This document shows positions 9,056 to 18,730 of a stretch of 64,000 bases of DNA, in pieces. Below the pieces are notes generated by a model. That model made no database searches. It was given only the letters and a program-made list of their open reading frames with translations, and was not told the origin of the DNA. Positions within the stretch are counted from its first letter, which is position 1; each line of letters starts with the position of its first letter. The translations under genes were made by a program, and so were the position numbers. The DNA comes from Planctomycetota bacterium (GTDB taxonomy: Bacteria; Planctomycetota; UBA1135; GCA-002686595), in the NCBI GenBank assembly GCA_026692665.1, contig JAPLOF010000054.1, positions 106,735 to 170,734 of the forward strand, in the 5' to 3' direction.

Positions 9056-10258
9056 CTACTTGCCGGCGCGCTTCTCGTCGATGCCCTCGCGCAGTTCCCC
9101 GCGCTCAATGGCATCGCGCGCCGCGTCGACGGCCCGAGCCCAACGGCGCTCGGCGTCGTCGAATTGGCCCAGTTCCCAGGCGCGGTTGCCGGACTCGTAC
9201 CAGAGGTAGGGGTCGGACGGATGCAGCCTGCTGGCCGCATCCAGCCAGACCAGCGCGTGCCCCGGCCGGCCATCGACGACCAGCTTGCTCTGGCACACGA
9301 GGAAGTCGAAGGCGCGCGTCTTGCGCGCCTCGTGCTCCTGCACGATCTCGCCCAGCCGGGCGCGCATCTCCTCGGCCGTCACGGCACCCCACTGCCTCGA
9401 GACCTCGGCGGGGTCGAGGCCTTCGATCAGGGAGTCGTGCAGCATCTGCAGCGTGCACACGTCTTCGAACCCGAGCTCCGAGGTGGTGTTGGTCGGAACC
9501 AGCGTGCCGGCGCTGACACCCTTCTCCGAGATGAAGCGCGACAGGGCCCTCTTGCGTCCGCTGATGACCTCGTGAGTCTCCTTCGGCTTGTTGTACAGGC
9601 AGCCGGACACCAGCAAGTCCCGCTCTGGCACCTCGAAGACCATGTACTCCGGCGTCGGCACGTCCCAGCCGTCGGGCGCGGGTCCGCGCCTGAGCACGTG
9701 CACGATCAGGCGGTTCGTCCTGTCGCCGATCTCGAAGCGGTCCTTCACGACGATGGCGCGCCGCCTCAATGTGCCTTCGTCGGCCGTCAGCTTGACGAGC
9801 TCTTCGAGGTTCCATGGCGAGGTGACGATGGTCGCGCCGGCCGCCAGAAGCGGGTCGACGGCTTGGATCGAGTGGTCGTGGTGGTGCGAATGCAGTGCGA
9901 AGCGCACGGGCTTGCCGGGGATGCGCAGCTCGATCGTGCGCAGGATCTGGCGCACACTGCGGTCGTCCCACGGAGCCTCGATCAACGCCGTGAAGGTGTC
10001 GAACTCGGCCACGACGACCTTGGCCTTGCGTCGTTCGAAGCCTGGGATCGGCGGCGTCCAGATCAGGTGCACGCCCGGCGCGATGGTCTCGAAGCGGAGG
10101 CCCTCCTCCGCCGGCTGAGGAACTGCGGCGACGCCCGCCGGCGGAAGAGCAGCTGCTGGGCCAACGCCCGCTTGCGGCGGCAGGACTGCGAGCGCCGGCT
10201 CGCCGATGCACGACAGGGAAACGGCGAGCCAAAGGCGCGCGCAGAGCAGGTTCTTCAT
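9056..10258 (-). CDS. Exported metallo-beta-lactamase-fold protein with a TPR-like C-terminus
   Basis: The internal ATG at 10258 gives MKNLLCARLWLAVSLSCIGE with a signal peptide, better than the track start five codons upstream. The protein shows the fold of a metallo-beta-lactamase hydrolase: an early strand (GVHLIWTPPIPGFE), VVVAEFDTFTALIEAP, and the histidine/aspartate cluster LHSHHHDHSIQAVD where the H-x-H-x-D-H metal motif normally sits. The cluster has one residue more than the canonical spacing. The last ~70 residues (WLDAASRLHPSDPYLWYESG and after) look like one or two TPR helix pairs. Substrate is unknown. It lies downstream of the OPT transporter on the same strand with a 171-base gap. 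Confidence 0.6.
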   Translation of the reverse strand: MKNLLCARLWLAVSLSCIGEPALAVLPPQAGVGPAAALPPAGVAAVPQPAEEGLRFETIAPGVHLIWTPPIPGFERRKAKVVVAEFDTFTALIEAPWDDRSVRQILRTIELRIPGKPVRFALHSHHHDHSIQAVDPLLAAGATIVTSPWNLEELVKLTADEGTLRRRAIVVKDRFEIGDRTNRLIVHVLRRGPAPDGWDVPTPEYMVFEVPERDLLVSGCLYNKPKETHEVISGRKRALSRFISEKGVSAGTLVPTNTTSELGFEDVCTLQMLHDSLIEGLDPAEVSRQWGAVTAEEMRARLGEIVQEHEARKTRAFDFLVCQSKLVVDGRPGHALVWLDAASRLHPSDPYLWYESGNRAWELGQFDDAERRWARAVDAARDAIERGELREGIDEKRAGK

Positions 10259-10429
10259 GGGCCGGGATCGCAATGGGGTGCGCGAAAGCCGCCACTACGG
10301 CGCGTGCGCCCCCGCTGTTGGAATTCCAGGGCCATCAACGGTCGCCCCGACGGGGGATCGTCGCGCATGTTGGATGCCCCCCCGCCAGAGGGTCGTGCAC
10401 CTGGACTTCCTTCCCCCTCTCCCCCGATC

Positions 10430-12377: not shown

Positions 12378-13583
12378 TCAAGTCCGCCGGAACGTCTCCG
12401 CGTCCAACGAGGGCTCGCGGTGCGAAGCGAGGCCCAGCGCGAGGCCCAGCGCGAGGAACGTGGCCAGCAGCGACGACCCGCCCGTCGAGAAGAGCGGCAG
12501 CGTCAGGCCCGTCAGCGGGATGAGCCCCAGGTTCACGCCGCAGTGGATGAACAAGTGGGACGCGAACAGGATCCCGACGCCCGAGACCACGAGCCGCGAG
12601 AACCGGTCGCGCAGTCCCGACGCGCTGCCGAACAGCGACAGGACGAGCAGTCCGTACAAGGCCAGGATCACGCACGTGCCGATCCAGCCCGCCTCCTCGG
12701 CCACGACGGCGAAGATCGAGTCGCAATCCCGTTCGGGGAGCCAGGCGACCTCGTTCGCGACGCCGGATCCGAGCCCCTCGCCGCCGATGCCGCCGTTCCC
12801 GATCGCGACGCGCGCGTGGTAGGTGTGGAAGGCCGAGCTGTTGCGCTCGGCGATCAACTCGGGCGCGCTCCAACCGCGCGTCCACGTGTCGATGCGCTGC
12901 AGCTGGTAGTCACGGATACCGATCTCGAAGTGCCACATGCACGTGCCGAGCAGCAGCGCGCCCAGCAGGAACCCGAGGATCAGGCGACCGCTCGCGCCCG
13001 CGACGTAGAGCATGCCCAGCGTGATCGGCACGATCGTGAGCGAGGTGCCCAGGTCGGGCTGCAGCATCACGAGCCCCATCGGCAGGAGCGCCATCGCGAT
13101 CGGCATCCCCCACTCGCGCAGGCTCTTCAAGCGCAGGTGATCGAGCGCCGCGGCGAGGCCGAGGATCACGCCGACCTTCGCCAGCTCGGACGGCTGCAGG
13201 TCGAAGGGGCCCAGGTCGATCCAGCGGCGGGAACCGTTGCGCGTGTCACCGACGACGAACACGAGCACGAGGAGGGCGATCGTGATGCCCCAGGCCGCGA
13301 GGGCATTGCGCCGCAGCCACCGCGGGCGCGCCGCGAGCCCGAGGAAGAACGCCGGCGCGGCCACGAGCAACTTCTGGACGTGATCGACGAACCGGACGTC
13401 GGCCCGGCCGTAGGTCTCGTCCGCCGTGCTCATGGCCGAGACGAAAGCGAGTCCGATGGACAGGAGCAGGGCGGCGAGCAGGACGACGTGCCAGTCGAGA
13501 TTCGCCCAGCGCACTCCGCGCAGCGAAACGACGCGGTCGAGCCACGGCTTGCGCTCGCCCTGTCGGACCGAGTTGTCGCTCAC
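12378..13583 (-). CDS. rodA: Rod-shape peptidoglycan glycosyltransferase RodA (SEDS family)
   Basis: RodA polymerises lipid II glycan strands during cell elongation, together with PBP2. The 401-residue protein has about ten membrane segments and SEDS features such as DLQPSELAKVGVILGLAAAL and the C-terminal HLFIHCGVNLGLIPLTGLTLP, then STGGSSLLATFLALG. I chose GTG 13583 because GGAGG lies 7 bases upstream and the start falls 60 bases after the mrdA stop; the track start at 13685 would overlap mrdA. It is the last gene of the mreB-mreC-mreD-mrdA-rodA cluster. Confidence 0.93.
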   Translation of the reverse strand: MSDNSVRQGERKPWLDRVVSLRGVRWANLDWHVVLLAALLLSIGLAFVSAMSTADETYGRADVRFVDHVQKLLVAAPAFFLGLAARPRWLRRNALAAWGITIALLVLVFVVGDTRNGSRRWIDLGPFDLQPSELAKVGVILGLAAALDHLRLKSLREWGMPIAMALLPMGLVMLQPDLGTSLTIVPITLGMLYVAGASGRLILGFLLGALLLGTCMWHFEIGIRDYQLQRIDTWTRGWSAPELIAERNSSAFHTYHARVAIGNGGIGGEGLGSGVANEVAWLPERDCDSIFAVVAEEAGWIGTCVILALYGLLVLSLFGSASGLRDRFSRLVVSGVGILFASHLFIHCGVNLGLIPLTGLTLPLFSTGGSSLLATFLALGLALGLASHREPSLDAETFRRT

Positions 13584-13644
13584 GTCGCGTCCTCCGCGCG
13601 GCGGTTCGTCGCGCTGCACGCCAGGAGATCGCGGTCCTGCTGTT

Positions 13645-16600
13645 TCACTGTGCACCTTTCCGCGCGACGAATTCGCGCACGGCATCCGTCTGGAGCAACT
13701 GCGCCGCGACGTGCACGGCCGTGCGGCTCGCCGTCTCGGTCAGGTTGTGCAGGTAGACGACGACGACGGCGACCGGCTTCTCGGCCGGGAACCAGCCCGC
13801 CACCCAGGTGTGCTTGCGGGACTTGCCGGCCGCGCCGGCGGCGCGATCTTCGTCGGGCATGCCTGGGACCTCGTGGATCTTGCCGATGTCCGCGCTGCCC
13901 GTCTTGCACGCGAACGTGAAGCCCAGCGTGCCGGCGTCCAGGCCCTTGCCGTGGCCTGAACCGCCCGGCTCCTCGACGACGGCGCGCATCGCGGCTCGCA
14001 CGAACTCGAGGCTCTGGTTCGAGATCCCGAGAGGCCTCGACGCGCCCGCTACGGGGACTCCGCCGATCGCGCGCACGACCCGCACCTCGGGCAGCACGCC
14101 GGTCGCGAGACCGGCCGTCGCTCGCGCGACCTGGAGCGGGCTCGCCCACAGGAGGCCCAGCCCGTTCGGGAAACGCAACAAGTCGAAGCGCGATTGGAGG
14201 CGCTTCAGCATCCCCGCCTCGTCGATGTCCGGCGACGCTTTCCAGTCCTCGCGCAATCCACGCCGGCCCTCGCGCGGATCGAAGCGCAGGCCGGTCGGCT
14301 CGCCAAAACCGAACGTGTGGGCGGCCTCCAGCAACTCGCGCGGTTGGAAGCGCAATCCGAGCTGCGCGAAGTATGCGTTGCACGAGACGGCCAGCGCGTG
14401 ATGGAGATCGGATTCGATGTGATGCGAGTTGCAGCGCAGCGTCTCGAACGCGGGTTGATTGCTGGCGTTCAGGCTGCACTCGAAGCGCGTCGCCGGATCG
14501 AAACCAAGGCGATCCAGGGCATAGGCCGCGACGAACGGCTTGAACACCGAGCCGGGCGGATTGAACGTCGGGGTCTGGGCGGTGCGCTCGCGCGGGTGCG
14601 AGCGCTCGTAGCCGCGGCCCGGGACGTTCGCGGCGCCAGGAAGGGTCGGCACCGACGCCGCCGCGAGGATCTCGCCCTCGGGCGTGAGCAGCACGATCGC
14701 GCCCACCGGATTCTCGAACCACGTACGGTCGGTATCGCCCGTGGCGGGCAGGCGCGGATGCGCCAGGACGTCCTGCGCCGCCACCTGGAGGCGTGCGTCG
14801 AGCGTGAGCGCGACATCCTGCCCGTCGATCGCGGGCACGAGCCGCGTGCCCTCGCCGCGCTCCTCGGCGTCGAGGCCCTCGGTCTCGTACATCCCGAACC
14901 GGCCGCGCAACTCGGTGTCGAACCACGATTCGAGCCCGTTGTCGCCGGTCCACTCGTCGGCCCGCGCGAGCCGCGTCGAGAGCTCGCGCAGCTCGCGATC
15001 CTCCTCCTCGCTGCGCAGGAGCCGGTACTGGAGGCTCGCGAGACGACGTTCGTCCTCGGACTGCGCCAGGAGTTCGCGCAGGAGCGGCCGCCGCGTGCCG
15101 CCGATGAGGAGGCCCGCCGCGACGGCTCCGTCCGCGTCGCGCACGCGGGCCACGCGCCGCGTGGTCTCGCGCACGGCGAAACCCGTGTAGCGCTCCGGAT
15201 CGCGCGCGACGAGTTGGACGAGCGCGTAGCCGGGATCGGCCGCGAGACGCGTCGCGCGACTCTGCGCGTCGACGAGGACGAATCGTTCGCGTTGCGCCGC
15301 CCGATCCAGGCGTTCCTCGGCGAGTTGCAGGGGCGGCGGAGGCGCGCCGTCCGAGGGCGCGGCGCCGCGCAGGGCCGAGAGCGTGCGCAGGACGGAGCCG
15401 CTGAAATCGGCTTCGAACGAACGTGCCGCTCGGCGCAGCTCGTCGAGTGCCTCGTCTCCGTCCAGGCCCTTGCGCGAGGCCGAGAGCCGCGTCCAGCGGG
15501 CCGCGATCTCGTCCGCGGTCGGGGATGCGAGCCCGGCGCGCAGTGCCGCCGCCTCGAAGAGCAGTCCGACCGTGCGCCACGGGTCCGGCTCGACCGCCGC
15601 GAGCGCGCGGTAGTCCTCGTCCTGGAAGGGCAGGACGGGGGCGTCGGCCGGCGTCCCTGGCGCGCCACGTGCCGAGCGAAACAAGGAACGCGACTCGTGC
15701 AGGACGGCCAGCGATTCGAGGTCCGTCCACGCGCGGTCGTCCGCGGCGCGAGCGTCGCCCGCGCGCCACAGGCTCGCGAGTCCGTCGAGCAGTCGCTGGG
15801 CTCGCGCGCCCTCGGACTCCCCGAGGTCGGCGCGCGCCAGGAGTCGCGGCAGGAGGAACTCGTCGAGTTCGCGCTCGAAGTCCCCGCGCCGCGTCGCGAT
15901 CCACGACTCCAGGCGTGCCGCATCCCAGCGCAGCGCCCGCGCGATCCAGGCCAGGTCGAACGTGTCGCGCAACGCCTCGGTCGGTACGCGCCCCGGACCG
16001 AAGCCGGTTGCCGTGCGGAACAGATCGTCGGCGGCCTCGTCCTCTTGATCCGCGCGGCGCTGGTCGAACAGCGCGAGGAGCCCGGTCAGCGGGTCCGTCA
16101 CCGCAGTGGATCCTGTGCCCAGGATCTTCTGTTCGTCGAGCATCCCAGCCAGGACGCGCAGGTCGCCGCGGGACTCCTCCGCGCGCCGCGTCAGCGTCGC
16201 GATCACGCTCTCCTGGTTCGTCCCGCGCACGGCGGCGGCAATCGCGCTCCACGGCCGATCGGCTTCGCCGGCCTCGATGCGGCGGCGGGCCGGCCCCGAT
16301 TCGCGGCGCGTGAGCGCGAGGATCTGCGCGACGTAGAAACGCAGATCCGCCGCGCGCCCCGCGCGCGCCGTCGGCTCCGGATCGGCGACCTCGGGGGCCA
16401 GCTCGAGACCGTCCGCGTCGCGCAACGCGTGCCCGAGCGCGAAGGCCTCGATCGAGGCCGGCGAGAGCGACGCGATGCGGCGGCACCACTCCTCCAGCCG
16501 CGGCTCCGTCTCGGCCAGGCCGACCGGCCGCGCCTCGATCGCGGTGCGCGCGTGCGCGGCGAGTCCCAAAGGATGGCCGCGGCGGAAGTCGCGGTAGACG

Positions 16601-16827
16601 AACTCGAGGCTCGCCGCGTCCTCGTCGGCGACCAGCACGCGACCTTCGCGGTCGAGGAAACGGCCGCGGTGGTAGGGCACGACGCGCGAGCTCGTGCGGA
16701 AGCTCGCGGCCTGCGCGGCCCAGACGTCGTGCTCGAGGACCTGGACCTGGAAGAGCCGCGCGGCCAGGACGCCGAGCCCCAGGATCACCACGATGCCGAG
16801 CGGCTGGAGCCGTCGCTGCGCTACCAC
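13645..16827 (-). CDS. mrdA: Penicillin-binding protein 2, elongasome transpeptidase, with a large N-terminal insertion
   Basis: This transpeptidase crosslinks peptidoglycan in the elongasome. GTG 16827 overlaps the mreD stop and gives 1060 residues. A single membrane anchor (residues ~10-27) is followed by the usual SSRVVPYHRGRFLDREGRVL. The three catalytic motifs are intact: S-x-x-K in PPGSVFKPF (S760), S-x-N in VSCNAYF (S815) and K-T-G in FACKTGSADIG (K975). The catalytic serine lies at 330 in E. coli PBP2, so about 430 extra residues sit between anchor and transpeptidase. They are Ala/Arg/Glu-rich and mostly helical in appearance, with no domain I recognise. The ORF track continues to 18219 only through lack of stops. 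Confidence 0.9.
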   Translation of the reverse strand: MVAQRRLQPLGIVVILGLGVLAARLFQVQVLEHDVWAAQAASFRTSSRVVPYHRGRFLDREGRVLVADEDAASLEFVYRDFRRGHPLGLAAHARTAIEARPVGLAETEPRLEEWCRRIASLSPASIEAFALGHALRDADGLELAPEVADPEPTARAGRAADLRFYVAQILALTRRESGPARRRIEAGEADRPWSAIAAAVRGTNQESVIATLTRRAEESRGDLRVLAGMLDEQKILGTGSTAVTDPLTGLLALFDQRRADQEDEAADDLFRTATGFGPGRVPTEALRDTFDLAWIARALRWDAARLESWIATRRGDFERELDEFLLPRLLARADLGESEGARAQRLLDGLASLWRAGDARAADDRAWTDLESLAVLHESRSLFRSARGAPGTPADAPVLPFQDEDYRALAAVEPDPWRTVGLLFEAAALRAGLASPTADEIAARWTRLSASRKGLDGDEALDELRRAARSFEADFSGSVLRTLSALRGAAPSDGAPPPPLQLAEERLDRAAQRERFVLVDAQSRATRLAADPGYALVQLVARDPERYTGFAVRETTRRVARVRDADGAVAAGLLIGGTRRPLLRELLAQSEDERRLASLQYRLLRSEEEDRELRELSTRLARADEWTGDNGLESWFDTELRGRFGMYETEGLDAEERGEGTRLVPAIDGQDVALTLDARLQVAAQDVLAHPRLPATGDTDRTWFENPVGAIVLLTPEGEILAAASVPTLPGAANVPGRGYERSHPRERTAQTPTFNPPGSVFKPFVAAYALDRLGFDPATRFECSLNASNQPAFETLRCNSHHIESDLHHALAVSCNAYFAQLGLRFQPRELLEAAHTFGFGEPTGLRFDPREGRRGLREDWKASPDIDEAGMLKRLQSRFDLLRFPNGLGLLWASPLQVARATAGLATGVLPEVRVVRAIGGVPVAGASRPLGISNQSLEFVRAAMRAVVEEPGGSGHGKGLDAGTLGFTFACKTGSADIGKIHEVPGMPDEDRAAGAAGKSRKHTWVAGWFPAEKPVAVVVVYLHNLTETASRTAVHVAAQLLQTDAVREFVARKGAQ

Positions 16828-17354
16828 GAGCGGCTCCAGAGCGGGGTGAGCCCGGGCAATCGCGCGAGGAGCGGACCCAGCGCGAACGCCAGGAGTGCGC
16901 TGGCGAGAGCGACGGGCAGTGCCGTCCCGGCCGCCGCGGCGAAGTCGATGGAGTGGTTCACCTCGCGCGCGTCGCGCGCGATGGAGATCCAGGCCTGGAA
17001 CATCCCCGCGGCGATGGCGGTCGCGAGCGTGCGCCCGAGGGGACCGGAGAGCTCGAACGCGCCGCGCACGGCGAGCGCCGCGAGCAGGGCGCCCAGGATG
17101 CCCGTGAAGAGGACGAGCGGAGGCTCTCCGCTCGTCGCCGCGCGCGCGAACGCCGTCAGCAGCGCGAGCAGGGCCAGATCGCCGACCTCGCAACGCGCGA
17201 GCACGACGACGGAGAGCACCAAGGCCGCGTCGGGGACCCACGATCCGGCCGCGTGGCGCGCGAGGATCCCTTGCAGCCCCGCGAGCGACACCGCCCACAC
17301 GAGGAACAGCGTCCAGCCGAGGACGCGCTGGCCCGGGCGGCGTCCGGACTTCAC
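16821..17354 (-). CDS. mreD: Rod shape-determining membrane protein MreD
   Basis: This 177-residue polytopic membrane protein is identified mainly by position between mreC and the PBP2 gene and by topology: about five hydrophobic segments, including VLGWTLFLVWAVSLAGLQGI and ALVLSVVVLARCEVGDLALL. GTG 17354 has GGAGG 7 bases upstream and overlaps the mreC stop (GTGA). Its own TAG overlaps the mrdA GTG. The 655-residue track ORF to 18788 is a run-through reading across mreC. MreD helps anchor MreB, MreC, PBP2 and RodA in the elongasome. Sequence conservation in this family is low, so the call leans on context. Confidence 0.85.
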   Translation of the reverse strand: MKSGRRPGQRVLGWTLFLVWAVSLAGLQGILARHAAGSWVPDAALVLSVVVLARCEVGDLALLALLTAFARAATSGEPPLVLFTGILGALLAALAVRGAFELSGPLGRTLATAIAAGMFQAWISIARDAREVNHSIDFAAAAGTALPVALASALLAFALGPLLARLPGLTPLWSRSW

Positions 17355-18730
17355 GGCAGTTCCTCCACGACGGGCGACGTCGCGAGGCGAACGCGCAGGC
17401 GCAGAAGGTCCGCGGGATCCTGCGCGGGCAGGAGACGCAGCACGTGGATTCCCGTTCCCGCGGGAACCGTGCACGTGCCGACCCACAGCCCGGCCGGGAC
17501 GCCGCGGTCGCCGGAGGACGTCGCGATCCGGGCCGGCCCGTGCGCCCGCTCCGGAGAACCCGCCGTAGCGACGCCCGCATCCCAAACGAGGAGCACCGCG
17601 TCTCCGTCGAGCCCGATCGATCGCAGACGACCCAGGTGAAGGGGCGCGGCCGCGCCCTCGATCGCGGCGACTCCCGAGAACGACAGCGCGGGGTCTCCGA
17701 GGAGAGCCCCGATCGCGCGGGAACCGTCGACCCGCACGACGCGGCCGAGGAAACGGGCGCCGACGCCCAGCGCTCCCCCGACTTCGACGCGCGCCTCGCG
17801 CGGCAGCACGAGGTGGCGCGTTCGCCGGCGCGGAGTGGAATCGCCCGCCAGCCCCACGCGCGCCGTCGTCCAGCCCGCGTCGTCGTAGGCGTCGTCGGCG
17901 TACAGCGGGCCCGCGGTCGCGAGCTCGGGTCCGCCCACGATCGCCACGGCGGAGAGCCCGTGCGCGTAGTCGAACGCGGTCTCGACCGCGAGGACCGCGC
18001 GACCGCGATCGGAGAGGACGCGCAGCTCCCCGAGCCGGAATCCATCGGCCCGCGCGCGGCGCTCGGCGCGCGGGCCCGTGCCCGCCTCGCGCACGACCAC
18101 GGAACCCGACTGCACCGGCCGGCTCTCGTGGCGCGCGCCGAGCTGCAGGAATCCGGCGCGGCGTGCGCGCGCTTCGACCAGGCCTCCCACGACGAGGCCC
18201 GCGGGCTCGGCCGAGCCATCGACGACGACCGCGCCCACGCGCAAGCTCTCGTCCGTCACGAGCTGGACCACGCCCTCGCCGGCACGCAGCGGGTCGACGT
18301 CGCGCACGCGCCCCACGTAGGTGTTCCCGCACACGACGGGCATGTCCGGCACGACGCCCGCCGCGGGCGGGAACCGCACACGCAGGATGTCCGTGTCGTT
18401 CGGATCGCGCTCGAGCACCTCGGCCACGAGGTAGGCCCGACCGTCGCGCAGCGCCGGATCCTTGGGCAGAGCGGCTTCGATCTGCGCCGAGAGCAGCGCG
18501 CGCGCGGCCTCGCGCTCGGCGGGCAGGGCCTCGTCGGCGTGCGTCAACGCGGCGCGCACCTCGCCGACTCCGAGCCAGCCGAGAGGACGCAGGACCTCGC
18601 GCGCCCAATGCGACGGCGTGAAGACGAAGTCGACCGCACGCTCGACCGGTGGAAACGGACGGAGCGCCAGCGCCGCGAGGACGAACACGCAGGCGAGGAC
18701 GAGAGTCCTCGATCGCAACCACGACAACAC
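17351..18730 (-). CDS. mreC: Rod shape-determining protein MreC
   Basis: This 459-residue bitopic protein has an N-terminal membrane anchor (MLSWLRSRTLVLACVFVLAA) followed by an extracytoplasmic region. The MreC signature region is visible as VAEVLERDPNDTDILRVRFP, then GNTYVGRVRDVDPLRAGEGVVQLVTDES. E. coli MreC is about 367 residues, so this one carries extra sequence in the C-terminal beta-rich half. It organises PBP2 and RodA in the periplasm. It lies 94 bases downstream of mreB and is coupled to mreD by a 4-base overlap. Confidence 0.87.
   Translation of the reverse strand: MLSWLRSRTLVLACVFVLAALALRPFPPVERAVDFVFTPSHWAREVLRPLGWLGVGEVRAALTHADEALPAEREAARALLSAQIEAALPKDPALRDGRAYLVAEVLERDPNDTDILRVRFPPAAGVVPDMPVVCGNTYVGRVRDVDPLRAGEGVVQLVTDESLRVGAVVVDGSAEPAGLVVGGLVEARARRAGFLQLGARHESRPVQSGSVVVREAGTGPRAERRARADGFRLGELRVLSDRGRAVLAVETAFDYAHGLSAVAIVGGPELATAGPLYADDAYDDAGWTTARVGLAGDSTPRRRTRHLVLPREARVEVGGALGVGARFLGRVVRVDGSRAIGALLGDPALSFSGVAAIEGAAAPLHLGRLRSIGLDGDAVLLVWDAGVATAGSPERAHGPARIATSSGDRGVPAGLWVGTCTVPAGTGIHVLRLLPAQDPADLLRLRVRLATSPVVEELP

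Follow-up and report, generated by a model that had tools for sequence, protein, structure and literature searches.

An enlarged, predicted all-helical pedestal head in the elongasome PBP2 of a planctomycete family

The RodA–PBP2 pair, a central machine of wall synthesis and a drug target, is controlled through the PBP2 pedestal. Some PBP2s are unusually long, among them, within the PVC group, that of Chlamydia. In H. pylori PBP2, a hydrophobic zipper in the pedestal head takes in MreC after an anchor swings away (PMC5626683), and pedestal opening has been tied to RodA activation (PMC10257715). C. difficile PBP2 (7RCW/7RCY), a protein of 111 kDa, has a helical head insertion and a zinc site (PMC9334274). 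Its central helical cluster (residues 111–240) consists of five helices inserted between head helices 1 and 2. This cluster touches all three subregions, packs on the pedestal, the transpeptidase and the coiled-coil, and shifts upon ligand binding (PMC9334274). A zinc site is also described for A. baumannii PBP2, with D350, D365, H371 and C384 around S326 (PMC9974482). No description of long planctomycete PBP2s was found in our literature searches.

Here we analyze a 64,000-nucleotide stretch of planctomycete DNA (contig JAPLOF010000054.1, positions 106,735 to 170,734), referred to as the window. It carries a gene for a very large PBP2 (Table 1). This gene encodes a genuine elongasome class B PBP2, the partner of RodA, with transpeptidase chemistry that is predicted from its motifs to be intact. 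SxxK, SxN and KTG are all present inside the Pfam transpeptidase domain. The initial annotation of this DNA had read the three motifs as intact and placed the catalytic serine near residue 760, which is its exact position. After the N-terminal transmembrane (TM) helix comes a pedestal that carries the R1 and GxxGlE motifs, and Pfam PBP_dimer is matched only partly (20.8 bits versus a cut-off of 24.4). The operon order mreB-mreC-(mreD position)-pbp2-rodA is kept in relatives. Structure prediction of PBP2 alone, a check proposed with the initial annotation, gave an AF2 model with pLDDT 85.5 and pTM 0.80. Among solved structures, Foldseek ranks the H. pylori PBP2–MreC complex first for this whole-protein model (5lp5, E 2.6e-20). 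The best NCBIfam model for the protein is pbp2_mrdA (E 6e-60), with a score below the equivalog cut-off (203 versus 455 bits). That cut-off, reached by none of the class-sample genomes and by 24 of the 196 phylum-sample genomes, is an annotation threshold and not a biological feature; the assignment to PBP2/MrdA is based on the motifs, the fold and the operon. The genome also encodes an FtsI/FtsW pair, a further class B PBP with its SEDS protein, on another contig, adjoining murE, murF and mraY in a mur-type cluster. Since this separate pair exists in the same genome, the window PBP2 is assigned to elongation.

Table 1. Features of the PBP2 gene and its neighbors in window coordinates
Feature	Position	Strand	Basis or remark
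pbp2 (mrdA-like)	13645..16827	(-)	1060 aa; GTG start overlaps the preceding gene's stop
Single N-terminal TM helix, ~residues 8-30	16738..16806	(-)	Sequence; helix 3-42 in AF2 model
R1 motif RGRFLDREG, residues 54-62; pedestal begins here	16642..16668	(-)	Motif position
Insertion region given to structure prediction, residues 78-525	15253..16596	(-)	All-alpha in AF2
Module A, ~residues 78-290	15958..16596	(-)	Profile comparison; homologous to insertions of f5, f7, f8 group and f6
Module B, ~residues 291-505	15313..15957	(-)	Detected in the window's family only
Second pedestal motif region PGYALVQLVARDPERYTGFAVRETTRR, residues 532-560; canonical pedestal restarts	15148..15234	(-)	
Third pedestal motif GDNGLE, residues 628-633	14929..14946	(-)	Pfam PBP_dimer 607-649, below cut-off
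Transpeptidase domain, residues 709-1045	13693..14703	(-)	Pfam Transpeptidase E 1.6e-29
SxxK motif, S760-K763	14539..14550	(-)	GSVFK at 759; catalytic Ser = 760
Putative zinc site C784, C799, H803, C816	14380..14478	(-)	Invariant in 19/19 aligned family members
SxN motif, S815-C816-N817 (SCN)	14377..14385	(-)	
KTG motif, residues 975-977	13897..13905	(-)	
mreB, 354 aa	18825..19889	(-)	ORF named from sequence; conserved upstream of pbp2 in relatives
mreC, 459 aa, enlarged	17351..18730	(-)	Pfam MreC E 1.8e-7
Membrane protein in mreD position	16821..17399	(-)	Start uncertain
rodA (ORF as listed)	12378..13685	(-)	TIGR02210 E 2e-82, Pfam E 3e-80; true start probably downstream of 13685

The transpeptidase domain also carries a putative zinc-type site. 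C784 and C799 lie at +24 and +39 from the catalytic serine and are followed by H803 and by C816, the x of the SxN motif. The A. baumannii site has the same +24/+39 spacing, but Cys replaces both Asp in the window PBP2. The predicted ligands are Cys-Cys-His-Cys rather than Asp-Asp-His-Cys.

The length of the head was measured as the distance from R1 to the catalytic serine. This distance is 706 in the window PBP2 and 272 in a betaproteobacterial PBP2 from the same search, an excess of 434 residues that bears out the figure of ~430 given at the outset. Ordinary-size planctomycete PBP2s among those examined span 265–343, and the planctomycete survey as a whole forms a continuum from 265 to 769. 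The window's family falls at 667–769 (median 711; 59 ORFs, 46 distinct). The window PBP2 is matched in 35 of the 37 family genomes, nearly end to end in about 30 of them, which shows that the insertion is real and family-wide. A single family member has an in-frame stop, and the complete chromosomes of Pla163 (CP036290) and Pla86 (CP036296) carry the long PBP2. In plasmid records with PBP2 matches, the matches listed are confined to the C-terminal part, and no record reaches 80% query coverage. Against a congener, dN/dS is 0.32–0.40 for the insertion and 0.285 for the transpeptidase domain. The insertion is under purifying selection.

Conservation differs along the insertion. Across 19 family sequences, the insertions are 25–37% identical to the window's, and 17 positions from 78 to 309 do not vary, among them R79, R158, D161, W294, W301 and W309. 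Module B contains a conserved Trp/Arg motif, D291..W294..W301..R305..W309. Its outer part (334–520) has no invariant residue in the 19 sequences and the lowest conservation, with a majority-residue fraction of 0.34.

The insertion is flanked by the strand that follows R1 on one side and by the second pedestal motif on the other, which places it in the head subdomain. The initial annotation had set it where the pedestal contacts both MreC and RodA; slightly corrected, the head is the subdomain that meets MreC (PMC5626683). AF2 run on residues 78–525 alone returned a nearly all-helical model with mean pLDDT 87.4 and pTM 0.85, in keeping with the helical appearance noted earlier. The insertion had also been called unassigned, and it stayed so through three kinds of search. 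Pfam has no match for the window's insertion and gives scattered weak matches in single relatives only. The insertion profile matched no PDB chain other than designed proteins at chance level. Foldseek against the PDB found nothing at E ≤0.001; the best match (E 0.035, probability 0.13, TM 0.10) was treated as noise. An internal-repeat origin was rejected, as self profile comparison gave no second alignment above 0.1% probability. As modeled, the insertion is a conserved all-helical domain of ~430 residues whose shape has no match among PDB structures by Foldseek.

Comparison with other planctomycete PBP2s separates the insertion into two modules. Module A matches the insertions of order-mates with hhalign probabilities of 98.9% (family f5), 95.9% (f7), 94.6% (f8 group) and 92.5% (f6), against at most 1% in column-shuffled controls. 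These profiles held the insertion only; global runs with shared flanks were discarded as uninformative on the insertion itself. Module B was unmatched outside the window's family in the same profile comparison. A tree built from the transpeptidase core places the window's family (f1) as sister to f2 (support 100/96), whose R1-to-Ser distance is 456, and clusters the elongation PBP2s of the order (support 81/97). The order-mate PBP2s (f2, f4–f8) share the clade and, in the four tested cases, a homologous module A. They differ in having R1-to-Ser distances of mostly 420–558 and no detected module B.

Long heads also occur elsewhere in the tree. Families f16 (L131, L132; R1-to-Ser 621–624) and f28 (L148, L149; 575–578) have an enlarged head like the window's, but their insertions are unrelated to it in sequence (hhalign probability <1%) and their MreC is mostly of ordinary size. 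A single origin of all long planctomycete heads is supported neither by the profile comparison nor by the tree, on which an R1-to-Ser label of ≥500 needs at least six changes. Together, profile comparison and core tree suggest that growth was most likely stepwise in the window's lineage, with module A, shared across the order, coming before module B, which is confined to the family, and that it was repeated in other lineages. The suggestion of a lineage-specific elongasome domain therefore stands in part. Length, conservation, operon, structure prediction and tree support it, but it did not arise in one event, since module A is order-wide and only module B is specific to the family.

Other wall-synthesis genes were surveyed in the same genome and its relatives. 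FtsI (contig C48, L203:4826-7285, minus strand) is enlarged, with 819 aa and its catalytic serine at 474. Family FtsI is conserved end to end in many members, and FtsI-like frames of order-mates are mostly ~590–800 aa. No FtsZ was found in the window's genome, which is ~90% complete. Pfam MreD has no match to the mreD-position protein of the window or of eight relatives. Of 79 planctomycete genomes sampled, 33 do have a match to the same model, which contradicts a 2016 statement that MreD is absent from PVC proteomes (PMC5147048). RodZ-type HTH_25 was undetected in the window's genome; among the relatives searched, a minority showed it, and only at marginal scores. A 405 aa ORF located two genes downstream of rodA (9056-10273, minus strand) contains HSHHHDH and looks, by eye only, like a member of the metallo-beta-lactamase superfamily.

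What might such a head do? In the mechanism we propose, the pedestal head, ordinarily a small helical subdomain, would have been enlarged in two steps to an all-helical domain, an enlargement that we read from sequence comparison and prediction. On the periplasmic side of the elongasome, the enlarged head would serve as a platform, specific to the lineage, for docking and for conformational control. It would bind or position MreC, lineage-specific envelope partners, or both, and this binding or positioning would set the timing of RodA–PBP2 activity. Because the ordinary head receives MreC and RodA activation is tied to the opening of the pedestal, a docking and control role is the most likely one. 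We give about an even chance to the reading that the head is a lineage-specific helical docking or regulatory platform for the elongasome, with catalysis unchanged. Several observations weigh against it. MreC is enlarged in the window's family, as the initial annotation had noticed (open frames of 476–552 versus mostly ~240–350 across the phylum), but the size of MreC does not follow that of the PBP2 head. Across 30 families, mean head length and MreC frame length gave rho 0.25 and p 0.18, rough measures from open frames paired by hand. Simple co-growth of the two proteins is not significant at this level, and f16 and f28 combine long heads with ordinary-size MreC. The idea of an interaction domain tuned to the enlarged MreC thus found no support. 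The poor conservation of residues 334–520 is likewise weak for a single fixed binding surface.

The third observation against the platform is that the comparable C. difficile insertion packs on the enzyme itself (PMC9334274), and for this reason an intramolecular role is its close and main rival. The insertion could pack between pedestal and transpeptidase as a brace that stabilizes or allosterically couples both, with no recruitment of a partner. We consider this possible but rather unlikely. The position of the C. difficile cluster between head helices 1 and 2, its contacts with all subregions and its response to ligand (PMC9334274) are what a brace would look like, and C. difficile PBP2 is among the highest query TM-scores of the whole-model Foldseek matches (0.39–0.40). 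However, the superposition has an rmsd of ~17–22 A, the insertion profile matches no natural PDB chain in sequence, C. difficile PBP2 included, and no PBP occurs among the 50 insertion fold matches listed. The insertion is also predicted confidently alone, without the rest of the protein.

Alternatively, the bulky head could be a reach or spacing device that determines how high the transpeptidase stands, or how it is oriented, for an unusual envelope, with no specific partner. The enlargement of both FtsI and MreC would suggest joint growth of several periplasmic wall-synthesis proteins in this family. Yet the insertion sits within the head and not in the stem that links membrane and pedestal, and other planctomycete families pair a long PBP2 with an ordinary MreC, so we regard this explanation as improbable. 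We attach a similarly low probability to largely neutral growth, in which tolerated insertions lengthen the head loops and conservation is due solely to folding. The unrelated f16 and f28 expansions in the same region, the continuum of R1-to-Ser distances and an insertion dN/dS slightly above that of the core all fit this account, and it may be conceivable for the poorly conserved outer part (334–520). It accords poorly with the 17 invariant residues in insertions of such low identity, with a family length kept within narrow bounds and with a dN/dS well below 1. A frameshift, misassembly or gene fusion error, which the initial annotation had named as a possible refutation, is ruled out for practical purposes by dozens of independent assemblies, CP036290 and CP036296 among them, that agree in frame and length, by purifying selection and by the confident fold.

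Returning to the docking platform, a broader and more tentative reading can be built around it. The planctomycete PBP2 head may be a site of repeated domain acquisition, with at least three unrelated large, helical-looking insertions. The insertion of the window's family, without a solved counterpart, would then work as a fused elongasome subunit within a wider rebuilding of wall synthesis, of which the enlarged FtsI and MreC and the undetected FtsZ would be other signs. We think this somewhat less probable than not. A family-wide, large and apparently well-folded addition to the pedestal, in bacteria with an unusual envelope, allows control of the synthase by the head to be studied as a natural experiment. 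Should the domain bind a partner, this would bring to light a part of the elongasome that model organisms have not shown.

Set against described systems, the window enzyme has the transpeptidase and pedestal motifs, the TM helix and the mre/rodA operon in common with the elongasome PBP2/MrdA proteins of H. pylori (5LP5), E. coli and T. thermophilus (RodA–PBP2). The ~430 extra head residues are absent from those enzymes. C. difficile PBP2 resembles it as a very large elongasome class B PBP with a zinc-type site and, judging from sequence and model, a helical insertion in the same subdomain. The two insertions differ in size, ~130 residues in C. difficile versus ~430 here, and no similarity of sequence or fold between them was found by PDB profile search and Foldseek. 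The C. difficile coiled-coil, a stretch of ~110 residues that separates beta3 from beta4 in the transpeptidase, has no counterpart in the window PBP2, whose AF2 model leaves ~20 residues only between strands 973–983 and 1003–1013. The zinc ligands of C. difficile PBP2 are Asp-Asp-His-Cys, in contrast to the predicted Cys-Cys-His-Cys. The enzyme class is already known, and the structure of one large-head PBP2 has been solved. New here are the size of the domain, its apparently unmatched fold (PDB by Foldseek) and its apparently fixed presence in a planctomycete family, along with its most likely two-step origin and the unrelated insertions at the same region in other families.
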